Assembly: GCA_903919615.1 (NCBI GenBank) | Contig: CAIXIX010000044.1 | Span: 1 to 34,387, forward strand | Origin: an uncultured Chthonomonas sp. | GTDB taxonomy: Bacteria; Armatimonadota; Chthonomonadetes; Chthonomonadales; Chthonomonadaceae | Direction of reading: 5' to 3' | DNA: 34,387 nt | Part shown: positions 1,906-33,885 of the stretch, one piece after another | Layout of the letters: every line of letters begins with the position of its first letter | Numbering within the stretch: position 1 is the stretch's first letter | Notes under the pieces: model-generated | The model's input: only the letters and a program-made list of their open reading frames with translations | The model's database searches: none | Told to the model about the DNA's origin: nothing | Program-made: the position numbers and the translations under genes

Positions 1906-3717
1906 TTACTGATTGCTGGATGCCTCGGTGGACTGCAGATACAGATCGGCGAGCTCACTGGGTGTTACAAAAACGTACCTGTCCCCGAGTTTCTTGATAA
2001 TGTCGGGGAGCGCGTACAGAAACGTCCAGTTATCCAGCGTGATGTTCACAAATCCGTTCAGGAACGCTGGCTGTCCGACAGCCGCCGCCTTGTCGATCGC
2101 GCTGATAAACGCCTTCTCATTGGAAACCTCAACTAGGGGCGTTACCGCATTGAACACTGGCAAGCCCGATCTCGTTCGAGAGCTCGCGTTGGAGTCTCCG
2201 TTCTCCGCACCATATCCCGGTACGAGGTAACGCAGCCGGGATAGACGGTCTGAACACAGATCCAGCCACTGCTTGTCACCCTGGTACGGCCGCAGGCCGT
2301 GCTGATCCATCCGAGCCATATACCTGTCCGTCCAGCTAAGGAACTCCAGCACCACCGCATCCCGATTGGGCCGTCGGTTCGCGAAGTGCTCCGGATACAT
2401 GTATCCGATGCCGGAGACATCACAAAAGAACTCATTCGTCGGCGTCGCCTGATCGTAATACCAGTCCGCGATCGCAGGGATCAGGTCGATCGCTCCCGGA
2501 CCCACTCCGATTCCAATCGGGAAGTGCCGGTTGCGTCCGGCTAAGAACCAATCTACATGGTAGTTGTAAAAGGTGCCGAGAGCATCGCCGTCCGACGTAG
2601 TTAGGGTAACGTAGGTCTTGGATCGATCCAGGCGCGGGGATATGCGACGCGACGGTCGCTGCCGCAATCGGGATAGATGGTAACCAGTGTGGACCGATAG
2701 GTTGGGTATCCCGATCGCTATCAGAACGTCTCCCCATTCCGATATCATCTTGACGCCTTCGAACTCTCCCATCCCTTCGTTTGTTCCCGCCCACGTAAAA
2801 CCGCATACCGGAATGCAAGGCGGAAGATCAGCAAGAATCCTCTCGATTACCGCCTTTTCTTGCTTAGCGTTGCATTTGCGACTGCCGAGGCTCTCGACGC
2901 CCGTTACCCAGAACACAAACACCCGGTTCTGAATGTAGTAGTCCACAGGGAAAGCCCAGGGCAAAGCGTGATGCGACTTCGGATGCCCTGTCGCCAAAAT
3001 CTGGTGATTCAGCTTTGAACGGTAGGTCTGCCACACCCACTCCATCGCCTGATGGTTCATCGCGAACCGGCCCCGGAGATCGATTTTTAGCTGCAAGTGG
3101 TAATTTTCCGCAAGGGCGGCAGTGCAGACAAGGAGATCCTCCACGCCGGCGATCGAGATAGCGATGTTGTTGCTAACCGGCAGATCGGGGTCGGGCACGA
3201 CGGCACCCCGATAGGAGTGCGCAAAACGCGTCAACAGGTCGGCGATCCCTGTCGCATCTCCAGAGATACGCTCAGTATCAAGAACAAGCCTGCGCTTTCT
3301 TAACCACGCTAGCCAGAACTCATCTCGACGGTGCTCCGGCGGTTCATGGGACTTATCGCCAATCCACCTGCTGTTCGGTATCAGGTAGATTCGAGGTTTT
3401 TCACGGTTGACGAGGCCCTGCAAAGACATGAGCAGCAGATGCTCATCCGGTGAGGCATCGTGGCAATCGACAACGATTAGCTTGCGGGCTGGCGCAGGCG
3501 CCGTGGGGAAGAACAAGGCTTTATCTCGGATGGCTTGTTGCGGCAGTGCGGTTTCTGCCATGGCGCCCGAGGTCAGGCCGACGGCGGCAAGTGAGAGTAA
3601 TAGCTCGCGCCGATCGATTGCGCTGCCAGGCTCGTAAACTGAAGATTGCCCGTTAAAGTTCAAGGTGTTGCCTTTTTGGCTGGTGGAGAGGGACTTCCGT
3701 TGCTTGCCGGTTGCCAA
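1906..3717 (-). CDS. Secreted GxGYxYP domain protein
   Basis: A 603-aa protein of the GxGYxYP family, named for the motif seen here as GIGYMYP at residues 436-442. The family's N- and C-terminal domains are linked by context to carbohydrate metabolism, but no activity is established that I know of. An Arg-Arg pair (36-37) before a hydrophobic stretch (DRRELL, then LSLAAVGLTSGAMA to about residue 54) resembles a Tat signal, suggesting export of a folded protein. Aromatic and acidic residues are abundant in the central part. Start choice is uncertain: TTG at 3717 has AAGG four bases upstream, and a second TTG at 3663 (AAGG seven bases upstream) would shorten the leader by 18 residues. The gene appears monocistronic. 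Confidence 0.85.
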   Translation of the reverse strand: MATGKQRKSLSTSQKGNTLNFNGQSSVYEPGSAIDRRELLLSLAAVGLTSGAMAETALPQQAIRDKALFFPTAPAPARKLIVVDCHDASPDEHLLLMSLQGLVNREKPRIYLIPNSRWIGDKSHEPPEHRRDEFWLAWLRKRRLVLDTERISGDATGIADLLTRFAHSYRGAVVPDPDLPVSNNIAISIAGVEDLLVCTAALAENYHLQLKIDLRGRFAMNHQAMEWVWQTYRSKLNHQILATGHPKSHHALPWAFPVDYYIQNRVFVFWVTGVESLGSRKCNAKQEKAVIERILADLPPCIPVCGFTWAGTNEGMGEFEGVKMISEWGDVLIAIGIPNLSVHTGYHLSRLRQRPSRRISPRLDRSKTYVTLTTSDGDALGTFYNYHVDWFLAGRNRHFPIGIGVGPGAIDLIPAIADWYYDQATPTNEFFCDVSGIGYMYPEHFANRRPNRDAVVLEFLSWTDRYMARMDQHGLRPYQGDKQWLDLCSDRLSRLRYLVPGYGAENGDSNASSRTRSGLPVFNAVTPLVEVSNEKAFISAIDKAAAVGQPAFLNGFVNITLDNWTFLYALPDIIKKLGDRYVFVTPSELADLYLQSTEASSNQ

Positions 3718-8990: not shown

Positions 8991-10096
8991 ACACTTCGGA
9001 TTCCACTGTAGCGTCTACACACGATGGCGATCGAGCGGAGAAACTAACGCTTGCCGCATCGGCTGCTGGCGTTGTACTCGTTATTGGAGATACTGACACC
9101 GGTAAGTCGACCCTATGCAAGGAGCTATTGCATCAAGGCGTCCAGCATAACTTAACCGTGGCATGGATAGAGGCTAACTGCGCACACAGTAGTATGTCCG
9201 CACCTGGATGCATCGGCCTCGCGATGCCAGAGACCGCCGAAATCCATGCGGATGCTGCCTTGCAATCCGCAGCTTCGGCATTTGTAGGGGCTCTGACGCC
9301 GACTCAACACGTAACCGAGCTTATTGGCGGCATTGGCCGCTTGATGCGTGTGGCCAGAAGCCGGCAGCTAATCGTAATTGAGATGGATGGTTTCATTCGA
9401 GGTCCCAGGGCACGCCGGCTGCATCAGGCTGTAATCGATACAACCGCCCCCTCGCACATCTTTGCGATGCAACACAGCAACGAGCTAAGCACGATCCTGG
9501 CTGGCTGGCGTCGCAACTCCACGCTAGCTATCCACGAATTGCGTCCATCGCCCGATATTGTTCCAGTGCCCCTCAGTTTTCGAGCGCAGCGAAGAGCGAT
9601 CCGATTCTCGTCCGCGTTCAGCTCACCTGAAGGCGAGGTCCATTCTTACTCTTTTGATTCGGTGGCTTTTGAAGGGACGTGGTTAGGTTCCGGGGAACCT
9701 AGTCCACCGCACATGCTCCGTTACCTGGCAGGTGCGCTTGCTGAGGAGACCCAGGTCTACTACGCAGAGACATACGGAAATCACCTGGGAATAATGGTGT
9801 CACGGACGGTGCCAGATGACTGCGCGGCCCTTACGATCGCAATGGATCAGTTCCATGCTGGTGAGGCCACCATTACTCGAGCGCCTATCTTAAAGCATCT
9901 TGTAGTTGGCCTCGAAACCTCAGCGGGAAAGCTGCTGGGAATAGGGCGAATCGAAGCGATCGATTTCAAAAGGCGAACCCTGGGTGTGCGTTCGTTGGTG
10001 CGCACGCCTGCAGCGGTAAGCGCTATCCGCTTCGGAAGCATGCGGGTGGATGACAACGGCGAAGTGTTCGCGCTAATCTCACCCGGAGAGATTTAG
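8987..10096 (+). CDS. Clp1/Grc3-type polynucleotide 5'-kinase-like ATPase
   Basis: A predicted 369-aa P-loop protein of the Clp1/Nol9/Grc3 family, whose known members phosphorylate 5'-OH ends of RNA or DNA. The Walker A motif GDTDTGKST is encoded at 9086-9112 (residues 34-42). The CAHSSMSAPGCIGLA segment resembles the family's DxGQS...PG motif, QLIVIEMDG the Walker B strand, and RGPRARRLHQAVID the lid region. The C-terminal half (about 190-369) is beta-rich. No ATG, GTG or TTG lies in frame between 8882 and the Walker motif. The first standard start (TTG, 9128) would remove it. I therefore propose the ATA at 8987, which overlaps the upstream TAG stop as ATAG and has GAAGG 6 bases before it. 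Family call moderate to good; start uncertain. Confidence 0.65.
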   Translation: MDTSDSTVASTHDGDRAEKLTLAASAAGVVLVIGDTDTGKSTLCKELLHQGVQHNLTVAWIEANCAHSSMSAPGCIGLAMPETAEIHADAALQSAASAFVGALTPTQHVTELIGGIGRLMRVARSRQLIVIEMDGFIRGPRARRLHQAVIDTTAPSHIFAMQHSNELSTILAGWRRNSTLAIHELRPSPDIVPVPLSFRAQRRAIRFSSAFSSPEGEVHSYSFDSVAFEGTWLGSGEPSPPHMLRYLAGALAEETQVYYAETYGNHLGIMVSRTVPDDCAALTIAMDQFHAGEATITRAPILKHLVVGLETSAGKLLGIGRIEAIDFKRRTLGVRSLVRTPAAVSAIRFGSMRVDDNGEVFALISPGEI

Positions 10097-23660: not shown

Positions 23661-24518
23661 ATGAGTGAAACGGCTGTAGATCAGAATCCGCTGAAGGATA
23701 TGGATGATCTCGATGCTCTGCGGATCGAGGCGGTTATTGCAACGGATGAAAAACACGTCTACCGGGACTATGAGGCTGAAGCGCGCAGTACAGTTCGCGA
23801 GTTTTACCGACTGAACCATACTTACCAGACCCTCGACTTCGTACGCGCCAAAGAACAGGAGTTCAAACCAGGCGCTCATGGTGAGATGGGAATCTGGGAG
23901 GCGATGGAGTTCCTGAATAACCTTGTCGATGATAGTGATCCAGACACCGACTTGAGTCAGATCGACCACCTGTTGCAGACCTCTGAGGCTATTCGTGCCA
24001 ATGGCTTGCCGCGCTGGTTTCAGCTAACCGGTTTAATCCACGATCTAGGCAAAATACTCTGCCTGCTTGGCGAACCGCAGTGGTCCGTCGTTGGAGATAC
24101 GTTTCCTGTAGGTTGCGCCTATTCCGATAAGATCGTTTACTCGGAGTTCTTTACAGCGAACCCGGATTATCAGGTACCCGAATATCAAACATCCTGCGGC
24201 ATCTACGAAGAGGGATGCGGCCTAGACAAGGTACATCTGTCGTGGGGCCACGACGAGTATATGTACAATGTTTGCAAGCCTTATCTTCCGGAAAGCGGCC
24301 TCTATATGATTCGCTTCCACTCGTTCTACCCTGCTCACACGGGTGGCGCTTATGGGCAGCTATTTAACGATCATGACCGCGAAATGTTCAAGTGGGTGAA
24401 AGCCTTCAACCCGTTTGATCTCTACTCTAAAACAGCAGTTAAACCAGATGCCGCCGAGTTGAGGCCCTACTACGAGGATCTTATCTCCGAGTACTTCCCT
24501 GCGAAAATCGCCTGGTAG
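23661..24518 (+). CDS. myo-Inositol oxygenase (MIOX)
   Basis: A 285-aa non-haem diiron oxygenase, the size of animal MIOX. It converts myo-inositol and O2 to D-glucuronate. All six iron ligands of the HD-type fold can be placed: H103, H127 and D128 (LIHDLGK), H197 (SWGHDEY), H220 (RFHSFYPAH) and D253 (FNPFDLYSK). The substrate-binding lysine of LIHDLGKI (K131) and the [15 protein letters not shown] region are also kept. Residues H220 and D253 even have the same numbers as I recall for the human enzyme. GGAGG stands 5 bases before the ATG. It is downstream of a FKBP gene (18 bp) and upstream of a flavin/2Fe-2S reductase gene (81 bp). Bacterial MIOX is uncommon, as most bacteria use inositol dehydrogenase instead. 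Confidence 0.95.
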
Positions 24519-24599
24519 TTCTCAGGTTATTGTCCCCACGGAGAGCCCTCGCCAGCAGGTTAGGTTAGTAAAAGCGGCAGAGGGGCAGACGAGGACGCT

Positions 24600-25583
24600 A
24601 TGGCTTGCGTTCGGTTTCAGAACAGTAAATTTGAAATTCAGCCTGGGCAAACTGTTCTGGATTGCCTTACCGAGCATGGCGTTCGCATCTCCTCCTCCTG
24701 CAAAACAGGCATATGCCAGACCTGCATGTTGCGGTCAACATCGGGAACTGTTCCTGTAAGTGCGCAGCAGGGTCTTCGAAGCACTCTCGTCGATCAGGGA
24801 TATTTCTTATCCTGTGTCTGCATACCAGCCGATACGATTGCGGTCGAGATGCCCGGCACACAGGCAAACCCGGTCACGCATGTATCGCTCGTAGCGAAGG
24901 ACTGGCTAAACGAAGACACTGCCCGTCTTATGTTCGAAGGCGACTTTCCGGACGAGGCAAAATCTGGGCAGTTTTTTAACATAGAGCGCCCGTCAGATGG
25001 CCTAATTCGCAGCTACTCCTCCGCACAGATTGGCATGGGGTCGCTAGAGATCCATGTTCGGCGTCTGCCTGGTGGCAAAATGAGCTCGTGGCTATGCGAT
25101 GAGATTTCGCCCGGCGTGCCCTGCCGGATTACTGGCCCATATGGCGCCTGCTACTATGCTGGCTGTGATGCCGATCAGCCCATCCTGATGATCGGAACGG
25201 GAACAGGGCTTGCCCCGCTTTTGGGAATTGCCAACGATGCGCTCGCAAAGGGTCATCGGGGCACAATCAGGCTTTACCACGGCAGCTATCGAACGTCTGG
25301 TCTATACTTGGTTTCTGAGTTGAAGCTCCTTGCCAAGCAGTACTCCAATTTTGAGTATCTGCCATGCGTCGACTTTGGTGAGCACGGCACGGATAAGGGA
25401 GAATTCCGCATAAAGCGTGCGGACCTAGCCGCCGCCGAAGATCTTGCAGATCTAACAGGGTACAGGGTGTTTCTCTGCGGCCATCCCGAAATGGTAAAAT
25501 CTGCCAAACGCCGCTCTTACCTCGCAGGCGCCAGCCTGAAGGACATCTTTGCAGATCCATTCGTAATCTCTCCTGTGGGCTAA
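24600..25583 (+). CDS. 2Fe-2S ferredoxin:FAD/NAD(P)H reductase
   Basis: A 327-aa electron-transfer protein built like the reductase subunits of bacterial oxygenases. The N-terminal plant-type 2Fe-2S domain has cysteines C34, C39, C42 and C72 (spacing 4, 2, 29). The FAD domain follows, with the IRSYSSA motif near 136-142. The NAD-binding domain has GTGTGLAPLLGI near 200-211 and ends FLCGHPEMV. It should pass electrons from NAD(P)H via FAD to the iron-sulfur centre and on to a partner. No oxygenase other than MIOX is nearby. GAGG lies five bases before the ATG. The sequence does not identify the partner. Confidence 0.92.
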   Translation: MACVRFQNSKFEIQPGQTVLDCLTEHGVRISSSCKTGICQTCMLRSTSGTVPVSAQQGLRSTLVDQGYFLSCVCIPADTIAVEMPGTQANPVTHVSLVAKDWLNEDTARLMFEGDFPDEAKSGQFFNIERPSDGLIRSYSSAQIGMGSLEIHVRRLPGGKMSSWLCDEISPGVPCRITGPYGACYYAGCDADQPILMIGTGTGLAPLLGIANDALAKGHRGTIRLYHGSYRTSGLYLVSELKLLAKQYSNFEYLPCVDFGEHGTDKGEFRIKRADLAAAEDLADLTGYRVFLCGHPEMVKSAKRRSYLAGASLKDIFADPFVISPVG

Positions 25584-27708: not shown

Positions 27709-28800
27709 ATGAGGAATCTCAAATCGGCCGGTCTCGCTATCGCGCCGCTCGCCTTACTTCTATTTGCCGGCTGTAACAACAGCAAACCGCCGCCTGTTGC
27801 CGGTGAATCGCCTTCCGCCACCGGGGGACCTGCTGCGGGTGGGGCAAAGATCAAGATCGGCTACGTCCTGCATGGTTTGAATGACTTCACCCAGGTGATC
27901 AAGCGTGGAGCCGAAGACGCAGGCAAGGCAGCCGGTGTGGAAGTAGAGGTTGTTGGTCCATCCAGTTTCGAAGCGACCGAGGCGATCAGCCAATTTGAAG
28001 GGATGATCCAGAAAAAGAAGGATGGTCTTGCGGTTATACCGATGCCTGGCGAAGTTTGGGTGAAGCCGATCAACGAAGCGACAAAAGCCGGGATCCCGGT
28101 TGTCTCGGCAAACATCACTAGCAACGGCTCGGACGCTGTCACCTGGTTCGGCCAGGATGAGTATCAGAGCGGCGTGATTCTTGCGACCGAGCTCAAGAAG
28201 ATGCTCGAGGCACAGGGCAAGAAAAACGGGCAGATCCTTATCGGCATCTGCAAGCCGGGCGTCGCCGTTCTTGAGGAGCGATACAAAGGCTTTAAGAAGG
28301 GCCTCGAGGGCAGCGCCTACACGCTTACCGATCCCAAGGACGTTGGCACCGAGAGCACCGCCAACTACTCTGCGTGGGAGAACCAGGCTGGCAAAGCGCC
28401 GCAGATTGTAGCAGCCGTCGGCCTATGCTCCATGGATGTGCCGAACCTCGCCAAGCTTAAGACCAAGACGCATGCCACCTGGCTCATTGGCGGATACGAC
28501 CTGAATCAGGATACGCTCGATGCAATCCGGGCCGGCACCGTACAGATCACGCTGGGGCAGCACCCGTACCTGCAAGGCTACCTGCCAGTGCTTGCGCTTG
28601 CGCAATTGCTAAAGGACAAGAAGCCGCTGCCAAAGGGATGGGTAAACGTCGGTACCGAAATCGTTACTAAGGCGAACGTCGACTCGATCTACCCGCGCGA
28701 GACAGACCATGCGGCGGAAACCAAGTGGTATGCCGATGACGCCGCAAAGCGCTTCAGCGACCTCGGCTCGCTTGCCAAACCGCTGCCAGCTACTCACTAA
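27709..28800 (+). CDS. Sugar-binding lipoprotein of an ABC transporter (RbsB/Peripla_BP_4 type)
   Basis: A 363-aa substrate-binding lipoprotein. The signal peptide ends in a lipobox (LFAGC, C22), followed by a low-complexity Pro/Ser/Ala-rich linker (to about 44). The type I periplasmic-binding fold begins KIKIGYVLHGLNDFTQVIKRG. Typical hinge segments include GLAVIPMPGEVWV, GIPVVSANIT, GQDEYQSGVILATEL and LIGGYDLNQDTLDAI. The fold binds pentoses, hexoses or inositols; the precise ligand cannot be read. GGAGAG lies before the ATG. Its stop codon overlaps the stop of the convergent mannonate dehydratase gene by 3 bp. Confidence 0.93.
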   Translation: MRNLKSAGLAIAPLALLLFAGCNNSKPPPVAGESPSATGGPAAGGAKIKIGYVLHGLNDFTQVIKRGAEDAGKAAGVEVEVVGPSSFEATEAISQFEGMIQKKKDGLAVIPMPGEVWVKPINEATKAGIPVVSANITSNGSDAVTWFGQDEYQSGVILATELKKMLEAQGKKNGQILIGICKPGVAVLEERYKGFKKGLEGSAYTLTDPKDVGTESTANYSAWENQAGKAPQIVAAVGLCSMDVPNLAKLKTKTHATWLIGGYDLNQDTLDAIRAGTVQITLGQHPYLQGYLPVLALAQLLKDKKPLPKGWVNVGTEIVTKANVDSIYPRETDHAAETKWYADDAAKRFSDLGSLAKPLPATH

Positions 28801-29789
28801 CCGGTTGCGTCGAGCAGGCCGCGGATGTAACCAATCGCATACGCGCGGCCACGATGGCCGTAGGGCGTGTCGTTCACGAGACGTGGCACATGGTCGTCCA
28901 GGATAAAGCCGTTGAAGCCGACCTCGCGCAGTTTGCGCACGACTGCCTTCACATCGCTCTGTCCTTCGTCAATGAAGCACTCCTCGAAGTCGTCCGCGCA
29001 TCCATGTACATCACGCAGGTGAACGTACAGGATGCGCCCTCGGCTGCCAAAGTATTCGATAGCGTCTAGCACGCCTTCTCCACCCAGCATTTCGCTCCAG
29101 CAGCCGTTGCAGAAATCCAGACCGTGCATGGGGCTATTGTGGGTTTCCAGGGCTCTTTTAAATCCGTCAAAATTGCAGAATAGTCGTGCAATGCCGCCCA
29201 GAGTTGGCACGGGCGGATCGTCGGGATGCAGGGCAAGATGCACTCCTGCCTCTTCGCAAACGGGAAGAATCCGCTCGAGATACCAGTCGTAGTTGCTCCA
29301 CATCTGCTCGGCGCTAATCTCCCGACCATGCGTTAATGGGGCGTCCTTCACCTTTTCATATCGAAACTCGTTAGACACGGCTCCGCCCCGAACGCGCGTT
29401 TCGAAAGAGGTTCGCCATACGCCGTTCGGCATAAAATGGTATCCAAGAATCGGGATACCAGCGCGGCCGATGTTGCGCACGGTCGCGATCATGTCTTCGA
29501 GCTGAATCTCACGCCCCTCCTGGCCCGTCATGATCTTATCATAGAAGCGAATTGGGACGTTTTCGAGGGTAATCAGTCGCAGCCCAGCCGATTCGGCTCG
29601 CTGTCGGAGAGCTTTCAGGTCCTCAAATTCCCAGCGCGCATCGCCCGGAAGGTTCGGAGTGTTTAGCTGAATATCGGAAACGCCGACCTGCACGGCGAAC
29701 GCAAGCTGTTCATCCGTGAGTTCGCTCATCTGCCCAACGGCAACGCGCATCGGCAGCGCTGCCAGATCAGTCGCGCTCAATCTCTCCAT
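28797..29789 (-). CDS. uxuA: Mannonate dehydratase (UxuA-like)
   Basis: A 330-aa TIM-barrel enzyme that dehydrates D-mannonate to 2-dehydro-3-deoxy-D-gluconate in hexuronate breakdown. The family's ALHPDDPPVP motif is at 186-195 (H188 and D190 likely metal or catalytic ligands). HGLDFCNGCWSEM (222-234) and HLRDVHG further on are also UxuA-like. At 330 residues it is shorter than E. coli UxuA (about 394) but matches the shorter bacterial form. The ATG start has GGGAG 12 bases upstream. Convergent with the ABC transporter genes and divergent from the glycosidase-like gene. It should act two steps after glucuronate made by MIOX. Family assignment is strong; some relatives act on other sugar acids. 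Confidence 0.9.
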   Translation of the reverse strand: MERLSATDLAALPMRVAVGQMSELTDEQLAFAVQVGVSDIQLNTPNLPGDARWEFEDLKALRQRAESAGLRLITLENVPIRFYDKIMTGQEGREIQLEDMIATVRNIGRAGIPILGYHFMPNGVWRTSFETRVRGGAVSNEFRYEKVKDAPLTHGREISAEQMWSNYDWYLERILPVCEEAGVHLALHPDDPPVPTLGGIARLFCNFDGFKRALETHNSPMHGLDFCNGCWSEMLGGEGVLDAIEYFGSRGRILYVHLRDVHGCADDFEECFIDEGQSDVKAVVRKLREVGFNGFILDDHVPRLVNDTPYGHRGRAYAIGYIRGLLDATG

Positions 29790-29935
29790 TCGATCTGTTT
29801 ACTCCCTGTTTGCGGTTCAGCACGAAACTTCAACTGTGAATTAGCCATTACAGTGTCAAGTACATGCATGATTGTCTATCCGGGATGTAAAACTCATCGA
29901 ATACTGGGTATTGTCTCTGCTGGAGGCATGCATAG

Positions 29936-32197
29936 ATGCTCGCGATAATTGGACTTACAAAGGTGTTGTTGGCGATGTTGATGAACGACCTGCCGGTAGG
30001 ACCTGCTCCCCAGCCGGTCTCAATCCCGCACTTTCCCGATCGATACCACGCTTATGTTTGGCGCAACTGGCGACTAGTTACGCCAGAGAGAATGGCCACA
30101 GCGATCGGTGCAAATCGAGAGCAGATCGTCGAGACCGGTAAGGCCATGGGGCTTGGCGATCCGCCTGCCATCACCGCCGACCAGAAGCTGCGCTCCACCC
30201 TCACCGTGATCCGGCGCAACTGGCATCTGCTGCCATACGATCAGATGTTGAAACTGCTGAATCTAACCCCGACACAGCTCGAATATACGCTCCAGGAAGA
30301 CGATTTTCTCTATATCAAACTCGGCAGCCTCAAGCCAAAATGCGACCCCATAAGGTATGTCCCCGCTTCACCCGCAGTCCTGCATCGGGAGCACGAGATC
30401 AAGGCGGAGGTGGCTGCAGAATTCCCACACGGCATTCCTCAAGCGAAGCTCTTTAGTTTTGTAAAGGATCTGAGCAGAACAAAGTCGTCTATCGCAACTA
30501 AAGCAAAATCTGCTCCACAGCTTTCTCCACGTTACTGCTACTCCTACTTCGCGCTCTATGGCGACCCACTCTTGGATAAGCGCGCCGATCCCTACCCGGA
30601 GGCCTATTTAGAGAGCTTGCACCAATCTGGCGTTGATGGGGTTTGGCTGCAAGGCGTCTTAAACAGGATCGCGCCATTCCCATGGGATGCGAAAGAGAGT
30701 CAAGACTGGGAGCAGCGCCTGGCAAACCTGAAAGAGCTGGTAGCAAGAGCACGCAGGCATGGCATCGGCATCTATCTCTATATGAACGAGCCCCGCTCCA
30801 TTCCCTTGGCCTTCTTCGATAAACATCCTGAGCTCAAGGGCGTAACGGAGGGCGACCATGCCGCGCTCTGCACCTCTGCCCCGGAAGTTAAGAAGTATAT
30901 CGCTAGCTCGGTCGAGACTGTATGCCGCGCTGTGCCAGATCTTGCCGGATTCTTTACTATCACCGGATCGGAGAACCTCACAAACTGTTGGTCTCACGGT
31001 GGTGGCAAAAACTGCCCAAGGTGTGGGCCACGAGGGTTTGCTAGCGTCGTTGCAGAGGTGAATGCCCTGATTCTGGATGGCATCCATGCGGCAGGCGCAA
31101 AGACCTCACTGATCGCGTGGGACTGGGGCTGGCCCGAGGATGCCGCAGAAGCAACCATCCGCCAGTTGCCTGCAGATGCAGCCCTAATGAGTGTTAGCGA
31201 ATGGGACTTGCCGATCCATCGCGGCGGCATCGAGACAACCGTCGGTGAGTACTCTCTCTCCGCAGTTGGCCCCGGCCCGCGAGCGATCCGCCATTGGAAA
31301 ATCGCGAAAGATCGTGGCCTCAAGACCATCGCCAAGATACAGGCTGCTAACTCCTGGGAGATGTCTGCGGTGCCCTATGTGCCTGCTGTGGCAAATTCCG
31401 CGCAGCATGCCGCCAACCTGAGGTCGCTCAATCTAGGCGGGTTGATGCTTGGGTGGACCCTCGGTGGCTACCCATCCCCGAACCTCGATGTGGTATCACA
31501 GGTCTGTGCTGGCGCCTCACCGGACGAGGCCATGCACACAACGGCTGCGCATCGCTATGGCGAAACGAATGCTGATAGTATCGTTAAGCTCTGGAAGTCA
31601 TGCAGTGCTGCGTATACCGAATTTCCTTTTCATATCGGGCTGGTCTACACGGCGCCGCTGCAGCATGGGCCGTCGAATCTGCTTTGGAGCGAGCCGACCG
31701 GCTATCATGCCTCTATGGTCGGCTTTGCTTATGACGATCTCGATGCCTGGCGTGCCGTCTATCCGCCGGAGATCTTCTCCTCTCAGCTAATGAAGGTTTC
31801 AGATGGATTTAAAGTGGCAGTCGGTGCGTTCCGGACCACGCATGTTCAGGGGACGCGTGAACAAAGGGCCGCAATTCAGCTTGAGCTGGGCCTTTCAGAA
31901 GCTGTGTCTCTTCACTTCAGAAGCGTTGCAAACCAGGCGCGATTCATCGTGCTGAGAAACTCGCTGAAGTCTGCGGACTTGAAGCAGCTTGAAGAGCGCA
32001 AATCGGCTATCCGAGAGATTCTGGATGATGAGATTCTCACCGCACATCGTCTGCTCGAACTGCAGGCAGCGGATCCTCGAATAGGCTTCGAGGCATCGAA
32101 CCAGTACTACTACGTGGGCGAAGACCTGATGGAGAAGGTGCTGAACTGCCACGATCTGCTGGATCGATGGCTTCCAACAGTAATTTCAAACCATTAG
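29936..32197 (+). CDS. Large glycosidase-like TIM-barrel protein with duplicated N-terminal modules
   Basis: A 753-aa protein without a clear signal peptide; function not established. Two N-terminal modules resemble each other: RNWRLVTPERM (43-53) and RNWHLLPYDQM (94-104), each followed by a helical segment. They look like a duplicated helix-turn-helix-like unit. From about 199 a TIM-barrel-like glycosidase region begins (YSYFALYGDPL, VDGVWLQGVLNRIAPFP, HGIGIYLYMNEPRSIP). Then comes GFFTITGSENLTNCW with a Cys cluster at C351, C360 and C363, and IAWDWGWPED. The tail contains RIGFEASNQYYYVGEDLMEKVLNC, which I recall from uncharacterised GH20-like or alpha-glucuronidase-like proteins. E285 and E346 are possible catalytic residues. 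GGAGG stands nine bases before the ATG. Upstream of the GH44 gene in the same direction. Confidence 0.75.
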   Translation: MLAIIGLTKVLLAMLMNDLPVGPAPQPVSIPHFPDRYHAYVWRNWRLVTPERMATAIGANREQIVETGKAMGLGDPPAITADQKLRSTLTVIRRNWHLLPYDQMLKLLNLTPTQLEYTLQEDDFLYIKLGSLKPKCDPIRYVPASPAVLHREHEIKAEVAAEFPHGIPQAKLFSFVKDLSRTKSSIATKAKSAPQLSPRYCYSYFALYGDPLLDKRADPYPEAYLESLHQSGVDGVWLQGVLNRIAPFPWDAKESQDWEQRLANLKELVARARRHGIGIYLYMNEPRSIPLAFFDKHPELKGVTEGDHAALCTSAPEVKKYIASSVETVCRAVPDLAGFFTITGSENLTNCWSHGGGKNCPRCGPRGFASVVAEVNALILDGIHAAGAKTSLIAWDWGWPEDAAEATIRQLPADAALMSVSEWDLPIHRGGIETTVGEYSLSAVGPGPRAIRHWKIAKDRGLKTIAKIQAANSWEMSAVPYVPAVANSAQHAANLRSLNLGGLMLGWTLGGYPSPNLDVVSQVCAGASPDEAMHTTAAHRYGETNADSIVKLWKSCSAAYTEFPFHIGLVYTAPLQHGPSNLLWSEPTGYHASMVGFAYDDLDAWRAVYPPEIFSSQLMKVSDGFKVAVGAFRTTHVQGTREQRAAIQLELGLSEAVSLHFRSVANQARFIVLRNSLKSADLKQLEERKSAIREILDDEILTAHRLLELQAADPRIGFEASNQYYYVGEDLMEKVLNCHDLLDRWLPTVISNH

Positions 32198-32229
32198 CTA
32201 TATCTAGCCGTTCAAAGGAGACGCGGTCA

Positions 32230-33885
32230 ATGGCAACAGGTACACGAGAATTGTATAGGTATGGCGCAGTTGCGGTTTTGGCATGTGCAGTCGCATGTGT
32301 CTCGTTGTTGTCGCCACACGCATGTGCTCAATCGAACGAAGTGATTATCCAGGTCGACACTGCAAGAGATCGACATCCCATTTCGTCACTTATCTATGGC
32401 GTTAACTTCGCAACCGAAGAGCAGCTGAAACTACTGCACTCTCCCGCGAATCGCAATGGCGGAAATGCAACAACGCGCTACAACTGGAAGCAGAACTGCA
32501 CAAACTCTGGTAACGACTGGTTTTACATGAGCCACACGGAACCGGGTACTGCCCCCGGCGAAAGTGTGGATCGATGGATCGAAGCGAACCGAGCCGCTGG
32601 TGCGAAAAGTCTGGTTAGTCTTCCGCTAATCGGCTGGGTTGCCAGGCTTAAGGCAGACCGCTCACCAACCTGGTCTTATTCCGTCGCGAAGTATGGCAAG
32701 CAGCAGAAGACTGAACCGAACAATGCTGATATGGGCAATGGCAGCGCGCAGGACGGAAAACCTGTAGATGGCAACGACCCAACGGATTCGAACATCAAGG
32801 TTGATATTGCATATCAGAAAGGCTGGCTCGAGCATCTCACGCAGAAATTCGGAACCGCGAAGTCTGGCGGCGTCAATTGGTATCTGCTCGACAACGAGCC
32901 GGGTATCTGGCAAGGTACGCACCGGGACGTCTTTCCGGTTGGCATCAAGATGGAAGATCTCTTTAACCGAGAGCTTGCCGCTGCGAAACTTGTAAAATCG
33001 GTGGATCCTAGTGCGCTCGTCGGCGGACCGGAGGAGTGGGGCTGGACCAACTACCTCTACTCTGGCTACGATTCGCAATGGGCAGGCGTACATGGTTGGG
33101 ATAAGCCAAAGCCCGATCGATCCGCGCATGGCGATGTCGACATCATGCCCTGGCTTCTTAAGCAGTTTGCTACGGCTGAGCAGACGGAAGGAAAGCGACT
33201 GCTGGACTATTTCACGCTGCACTTCTACCCTCAGGCGGATGGCGTGGGCGGGGATGACGTGAGTGAAGCGGTCAAGCTTCGCCGCAACCGCTCCACACGC
33301 GCTTTGTGGGAGCCTGCATACAAGGACGAGTCGTGGATTGCAACTGAAGTGAAACTGATTCCAAGAATGAAGGAGTGGGTCGCCCAAAGCTATCCTGGCA
33401 CGAAGATTGGCCTCACCGAGTACAACTGGGGCGCTGAGAAGAGCATGAGCGGCGCGGTAGCGCAAGCCGACATCCTGGGAATACTGGGCCGCGAAGGGGT
33501 CGACCTGGCGACACGCTGGGTCTGCCCGGCAACAAACACGCCCACGTTTAAAGCCATTCAGATGTACCGAAATTTCGACGGCAAGGGCGGATCGTTTGGC
33601 TCAACTTCGATCCATTGCAGTGGTGGAAATCCCGATGAGGTTGCGGCGTTTGCCGCTCAAGAAGGTGCAAACGGCCGAATAACCATCATGGTGATTAACA
33701 AGAAGCCGCATGATGCCGTTACTGCACATGTTCGCCTTACGCAGGGAAGGACGATCAATTCGTCGATTACACAGTACCGACTGAACGGAGGCGCCATAGA
33801 TCGAGTTGTCCCTCCGTTCCACGAGGGACCTATTGACGTCACGCTACCCGCCGAATCGGTTACTCTGCTTGTAGTTGGGAGTTAG
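32230..33885 (+). CDS. Secreted GH44-family glycoside hydrolase
   Basis: A 551-aa extracellular glycosidase. An N-terminal signal peptide (about 1-33) has AVAVLACAVACVSLLSPHACA as its hydrophobic core and cleavage region. The GH44 start (IYGVNFA) and NRNGGNATTRYNW at about 74-86 are diagnostic. The acid/base E223 lies in YLLDNEPGIW and the nucleophile E397 in IGLTEYNWGAE. The C-terminal beta-sandwich ends with an LPAESVTLLVV strand. GH44 enzymes are endoglucanases/xyloglucanases, so plant cell-wall glucans are the likely substrate. The ATG at 32230 is supported by AAAGGAG nine bases upstream and by the signal peptide. It starts 32 bp after the glycosidase-like gene, so they are likely one operon. 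Confidence 0.9.
   Translation: MATGTRELYRYGAVAVLACAVACVSLLSPHACAQSNEVIIQVDTARDRHPISSLIYGVNFATEEQLKLLHSPANRNGGNATTRYNWKQNCTNSGNDWFYMSHTEPGTAPGESVDRWIEANRAAGAKSLVSLPLIGWVARLKADRSPTWSYSVAKYGKQQKTEPNNADMGNGSAQDGKPVDGNDPTDSNIKVDIAYQKGWLEHLTQKFGTAKSGGVNWYLLDNEPGIWQGTHRDVFPVGIKMEDLFNRELAAAKLVKSVDPSALVGGPEEWGWTNYLYSGYDSQWAGVHGWDKPKPDRSAHGDVDIMPWLLKQFATAEQTEGKRLLDYFTLHFYPQADGVGGDDVSEAVKLRRNRSTRALWEPAYKDESWIATEVKLIPRMKEWVAQSYPGTKIGLTEYNWGAEKSMSGAVAQADILGILGREGVDLATRWVCPATNTPTFKAIQMYRNFDGKGGSFGSTSIHCSGGNPDEVAAFAAQEGANGRITIMVINKKPHDAVTAHVRLTQGRTINSSITQYRLNGGAIDRVVPPFHEGPIDVTLPAESVTLLVVGS

Follow-up and report, generated by a model that had tools for sequence, protein, structure and literature searches.

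The 34,387-nucleotide stretch of DNA analyzed here (the window), from an uncultured Chthonomonas sp. of the phylum Armatimonadota, encodes a 753-residue protein that is probably an active glycoside hydrolase of the GH67/GH163 superfamily, as judged from its sequence and its predicted fold. No Pfam or NCBIfam model exists for its family. The protein would hold its active site in a TIM barrel and begins with a duplicated helix-turn-helix (HTH)-like module that probably does not bind DNA. This assignment is supported by a fold match to GH67, by profile alignments to GH67 and GH163, by invariant acids and cysteines, and by sugar-related neighboring genes. Counting against it are the low TM-scores of the fold matches, a GH67 alignment that ends after strand 4, an Ala at the E422 position in three homologues, neighborhoods that are not conserved beyond the genus, and a module without a significant fold match in the PDB.

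The coding sequence (29936 to 32197, forward strand, as are all features of this protein given below) starts with an ATG located 9 bases 3' of a GGAGG box (29922 to 29926), and the N terminus of the product reads MLAIIGLTKVLLAMLMNDLP. A structure model built from an alignment of 22 members (mean pLDDT, 89.3; pTM, 0.90) shows, in order, two tri-helical units, a barrel whose strands span residues 199 to 506, and long C-terminal helices. The TIM barrel proposed by the first-pass annotation is thus predicted with high confidence, at approximately residues 196 to 526 (30521 to 31513; strands 199-201 to 502-506), and the C-terminal helical domain covers residues 602 to 753 (31739 to 32194), including the EASNQYYY motif. 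When compared with the PDB by Foldseek, the model best matched GH67 alpha-glucuronidases (E value of 1e-7), then GH84, GH20, and GH115. The TM-scores were low (mostly 0.26 to 0.39 when normalized by query length), the alignments were long and gapped, and the relation to PDB structures is therefore remote. When its sequence was searched against Pfam, NCBIfam, and the PDB, the window protein gave chance matches only (RepA, eL29, and ZSWIM), a PDB profile search gave only weak alpha-amylase stretches, and a literature search found no published description of the family. The suggestion that the family is new is borne out as far as the Pfam and NCBIfam libraries show; a CAZy family may hold these sequences.

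Relatives are widely distributed. One scan of genome contigs recovered 23 of them, mostly 43 to 65% identical, from Armatimonadota, Verrucomicrobiota, Planctomycetota, Hydrogenedentota, a Chloroflexi bin, and a Bacteroidales bin, so that they span at least five phyla; the genome from which the window derives contains one copy of the gene. Conservation across 79 homologous barrel sequences supports the two acids that the first-pass annotation had picked out for mutation. E346, in an SEN motif after strand 4 (codon 30971 to 30973), is kept in all 79 and is the proposed general acid, while E285, in an NEPR motif after strand 3 (30788 to 30790), is Glu in 78 and Asp in one. Further candidates are E422 after strand 6 (31199 to 31201; 76/79, with Ala in three), E438 in a GEY motif (31247 to 31249; Glu in 74 and Asp in 5), and E475 in a WE or HE motif after strand 7 (31358 to 31360; 79/79). 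The three sequences with Ala in place of E422 are probably L049, L062, and L146, which are deep-branching, repeat-bearing members that start at the module, lack a clear leader, and carry RNH or RNF in place of RNW. The cysteines C351, C360, and C363 (30986 to 31024) are likewise present in all 79 sequences and, together with E285 and E346, are invariant in the 22-member alignment; all five residues lie at the positions first assigned to them. The Cys cluster itself is typical of the barrel in general, being shared with repeat-less cousins and aligned with Cys residues of GH163.

It is conceivable that the barrel was kept and catalysis lost, leaving a pseudo-enzyme or a carbohydrate-binding protein, and our literature search indeed found no measured activity for any member. 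The retention of acids 285, 346, and 475 in practically all 79 sequences, across several phyla, makes such a loss very unlikely. In an active enzyme, the likely proton donor would be E346, where strand 4 ends; the base would likely be one of E422, E438, and E475, and E285 would lie beside the active site. An SE motif at the acid, in place of DE, DD, or ND, makes direct displacement of the GH67 type more likely than the acetamido-assisted catalysis of GH20, GH84, and GH163.

GH67 (Glyco_hydro_67N/M/C; PDB IDs 1h41 and 1mqq) is the nearest fold, sharing the order of front domain, barrel, and helical C-terminal domain. By hhalign, the barrel profile aligned with a profile of ten GH67 sequences (E value, 1.4e-5; probability, 80%; 27% identity over 103 columns) as far as the end of strand 4, where TITGSEN faces VKANSEG. 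In the PDB alignment, the Glu facing E346, in the SE motif, corresponds to the Ala of 1h41, which is titled as the E292A mutant; E346 thus occupies the place of the catalytic Glu that follows strand 4 in GH67 (E292 in the wild type of 1h41). The base acids of GH67 are D365 and E393 (Cellvibrio numbering). The likeness has limits: the window protein has no Glyco_hydro_67M match above the Pfam cut-off (4 of 22 relatives match, with a best E value of 0.0052), and it lacks the N-terminal alpha/beta domain of GH67 (GH67N), residues 36 to 128 being occupied by the duplicated helical module instead.

The genomic surroundings bear on the substrate. As first described, the gene lies between uxuA and a GH44 gene. 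The divergent neighbor encodes UxuA, a D-mannonate dehydratase (28797 to 29789, reverse strand; 4.7e-56), beyond which lie a sugar permease, a binding protein, and the myo-inositol oxygenase MIOX. The GH44 gene (32230 to 33885, forward strand; Glyco_hydro_44, 5.8e-66) begins 32 bases after the stop codon, 32230 being its more likely start, preceded by an AAAGGAG box (32214 to 32220). A permease, a binding protein, and UxuA, 78% identical to those of the window, are found near the homologue in the genus-mate L001, the only one of the related loci compared to share the UxuA and transporter neighborhood. GH44 was found beside no related locus, L001 included; more distant loci have no neighbors in common with the window except for one 36% identical permease; and a survey of 78 flanking open reading frames revealed no conserved operon, no family occurring in more than four. 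As a weak lead, the neighbors point to uronic acids or a uronic-acid-bearing oligosaccharide as the substrate.

These observations raise the question of whether the protein is an alpha-glucuronidase proper, which would remove (methyl)glucuronic acid from xylan or related oligosaccharides, feed the UxuA pathway, and replace the GH67 that we did not find in this genome. The top fold matches to GH67 structures, the shared SE motif, the UxuA and sugar transporter genes adjoining the gene in both the window and L001, and the presence of MIOX in the window all agree with this activity. We nevertheless consider it unlikely, given that the surroundings are conserved only within the genus and that the GH67 alignment stops short of the other GH67 catalytic residues. 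Furthermore, GH115 shows that the same fold can bear quite a different catalytic set (PMC3879575).

The window holds several other genes of interest. At 23661 to 25583, the gene immediately after MIOX (7e-111) encodes a 2Fe-2S/FAD/NAD oxidoreductase, which could serve as electron donor for MIOX. A putative glycoside hydrolase of the GxGYxYP type is encoded at 1906 to 3717, and a CLP1_P-type P-loop protein (6e-18) at 9128 to 10096; the CLP1_P family resembles polynucleotide kinases and is more familiar from eukaryotes and archaea.

The superfamily assignment also rests on GH163, the beta-N-acetylglucosaminidases described by DUF4838, with which the barrel profile aligned better than with GH67 (E value, 8e-9; probability, 96%), including the Cys-x-x-Cys part. 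GH163 cleaves GlcNAc-beta-1,2-Man (PMC10154615), and a beta-N-acetylhexosaminidase-like enzyme using acetamido-assisted catalysis, as in GH20, GH84, and GH163, would fit this stronger match, the presence of GH84 and GH20 among the fold matches, and the Glyco_hydro_20b domain of the cousins described below. What speaks against such an enzyme is the residue before the acid: it is Ser in 52 of 53 repeat-bearing members, at a site where an assisting Asp or Asn would be expected. DUF4838 has SQND where the window protein has SE, and the DE pair of GH20 is likewise replaced by S345-E346. Moreover, there is no full-length match to GH20, GH84, or GH163; DUF4838 was not found above the cut-off in the window protein (1 of 22 relatives reached an E value of 0.006), and no Glyco_hydro_20b domain precedes its barrel. 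We thus hold an acetamido-assisted hexosaminidase to be unlikely. Since the defining profile matches and front domains of GH67, GH163, and GH20 were each looked for and not found in the window protein, we place the family of this probable hydrolase outside all three, with GH20, GH84, and GH115 as more remote kin. Genes of the DUF4838 (GH163) type are very numerous in the phylum (G000 and its relatives), with up to 29 in one genome; a DUF4838 member gave no PDB sequence match.

The duplicated RNW helical module noted in the first-pass annotation is a genuine duplication of two 51-residue tri-helical modules, kept in all relatives. Module 1 spans residues 33 to 72 (30032 to 30151; helices 36-44, 50-57, and 61-70) and module 2 residues 84 to 123 (30185 to 30304; helices 88-94, 101-108, and 112-121), as delimited by the predicted model and repeat scoring, with RNW at residues 43 to 45 and 94 to 96, 51 residues apart. 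In 22 homologues, the BLOSUM62 score of residues 33 to 71 against the stretch 51 residues further on was +23.2 per sequence, far above the -38.5 ± 10.2 of column shuffles, none of which (0/2,000) reached the observed score; across the protein, an offset of 51 scored best, and no other came close. All 22 aligned members share R43, N44, W45, N95, W96, E121, and D123.

The resemblance of the module to HTH units, and its fusion to a glycosidase-type barrel, likewise found support. Thirteen of the 17 Pfam families that weakly match it are HTH or similar (the best being HTH_11, at 2.4e-5), the deep-branching L049 matches HTH_11, and a Foldseek search with the module alone listed mostly HTH regulators. 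If the module bound DNA, a glycosidase barrel would have been made into a sugar-sensing regulator, and the absence of a leader in L049 and L062, which start at the module, would suit this role. However, none of the Foldseek matches was significant, nor did a profile search of the PDB return a significant match. The net charge of the module is near zero, and its second recognition helix carries -3 to 0, being acidic and never basic, as opposed to the basic recognition helix of DNA-binding HTH proteins. In contrast to HTH regulators, the module is always fused to the barrel (34 of 34 matches in 291 genomes of the phylum, 33 of which contain it), Tat or hydrophobic leaders occur in many members, and the active-site acids are fully kept. 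Therefore, a DNA-binding role is highly improbable, and the DNA-sensor reading was rejected on the grounds of charge, export, and conservation. The earlier view of the module as a sensor did not hold up either: it never occurs separately, is not basic, and occupies the site of a Glyco_hydro_20b-like domain in sister proteins. In the hydrolase that we favor, the module most likely packs on the barrel, where it would stabilize the barrel or shape the substrate pocket.

The sister proteins indicate how this arrangement may have arisen. Many proteins of the phylum match the barrel profile only from approximately column 204 onward, and no repeat was found in these barrel-only cousins; 19 of 24 cousins with the same barrel have Glyco_hydro_20b. 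In cousins such as L044 and L047, the barrel and C-terminal domain are homologous to those of the window protein over their full length (E value, 4e-100), with the same acids and cysteines. E719 separates the two groups, being kept in 52 of 53 repeat-bearing members and replaced by His in 26 of 26 cousins. In a barrel tree of 71 rows (45 repeat-bearing and 26 repeat-less), whose root is not fixed, a single branch (SH-aLRT, 99) split the two groups, with one change; hence, the front domain was exchanged once. Since Glyco_hydro_20b and GH67N-like domains occur in the wider superfamily, the repeat is presumed to have replaced Glyco_hydro_20b, and the duplicated module would now stand in the place of the Glyco_hydro_20b/GH67N-type domain. 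The sister lineage with Glyco_hydro_20b and the same barrel (L044, L047, and L118 to L137) occurs in many genomes of the phylum, its barrel also being without a Pfam model. GH67 above the cut-off (13 genomes) and the repeat-bearing enzyme (33 genomes) never occur together in the 291 genomes, numbers too few for significance.

The location of these proteins may differ between members. The window protein begins with a leader-like hydrophobic stretch at residues 1 to 19 (29936 to 29992; Kyte-Doolittle maximum of 2.26 over a 12-residue span), in a region modeled with low confidence (pLDDT below 50 for residues 1 to 21). Among 53 leaders, a twin-arginine motif occurs in 4 and a hydrophobic stretch in approximately 30, the remainder showing neither; this count includes three RNY-variant artifacts in the hydrophobic class and some loci twice, and it depends on an uncertain choice of start codons. 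The initial statement that there is no signal peptide is thus doubtful: it agrees with some homologues, whereas several others have Tat or Sec-like leaders. An intracellular location is not established, given the Tat leaders of some homologues and the hydrophobic leaders of many.

We speculate, tentatively, that an HTH-like duplication was recruited once from a DNA-binding ancestor, took the place of the front domain of GH67, GH163, and GH20 enzymes, and is now a required component of an active site that cleaves glycans. A one-time swap that put an HTH-like duplication in the place of a conserved front domain, and apparently a regulatory-type fold inside a hydrolase, is unusual, and it bears on the role of the front domain in GH67, GH163, and GH20 enzymes. 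Together with its Glyco_hydro_20b-bearing sisters, the family of the window protein represents a widespread glycosidase lineage missed by current family libraries, and its conserved active-site residues are ready candidates for testing.
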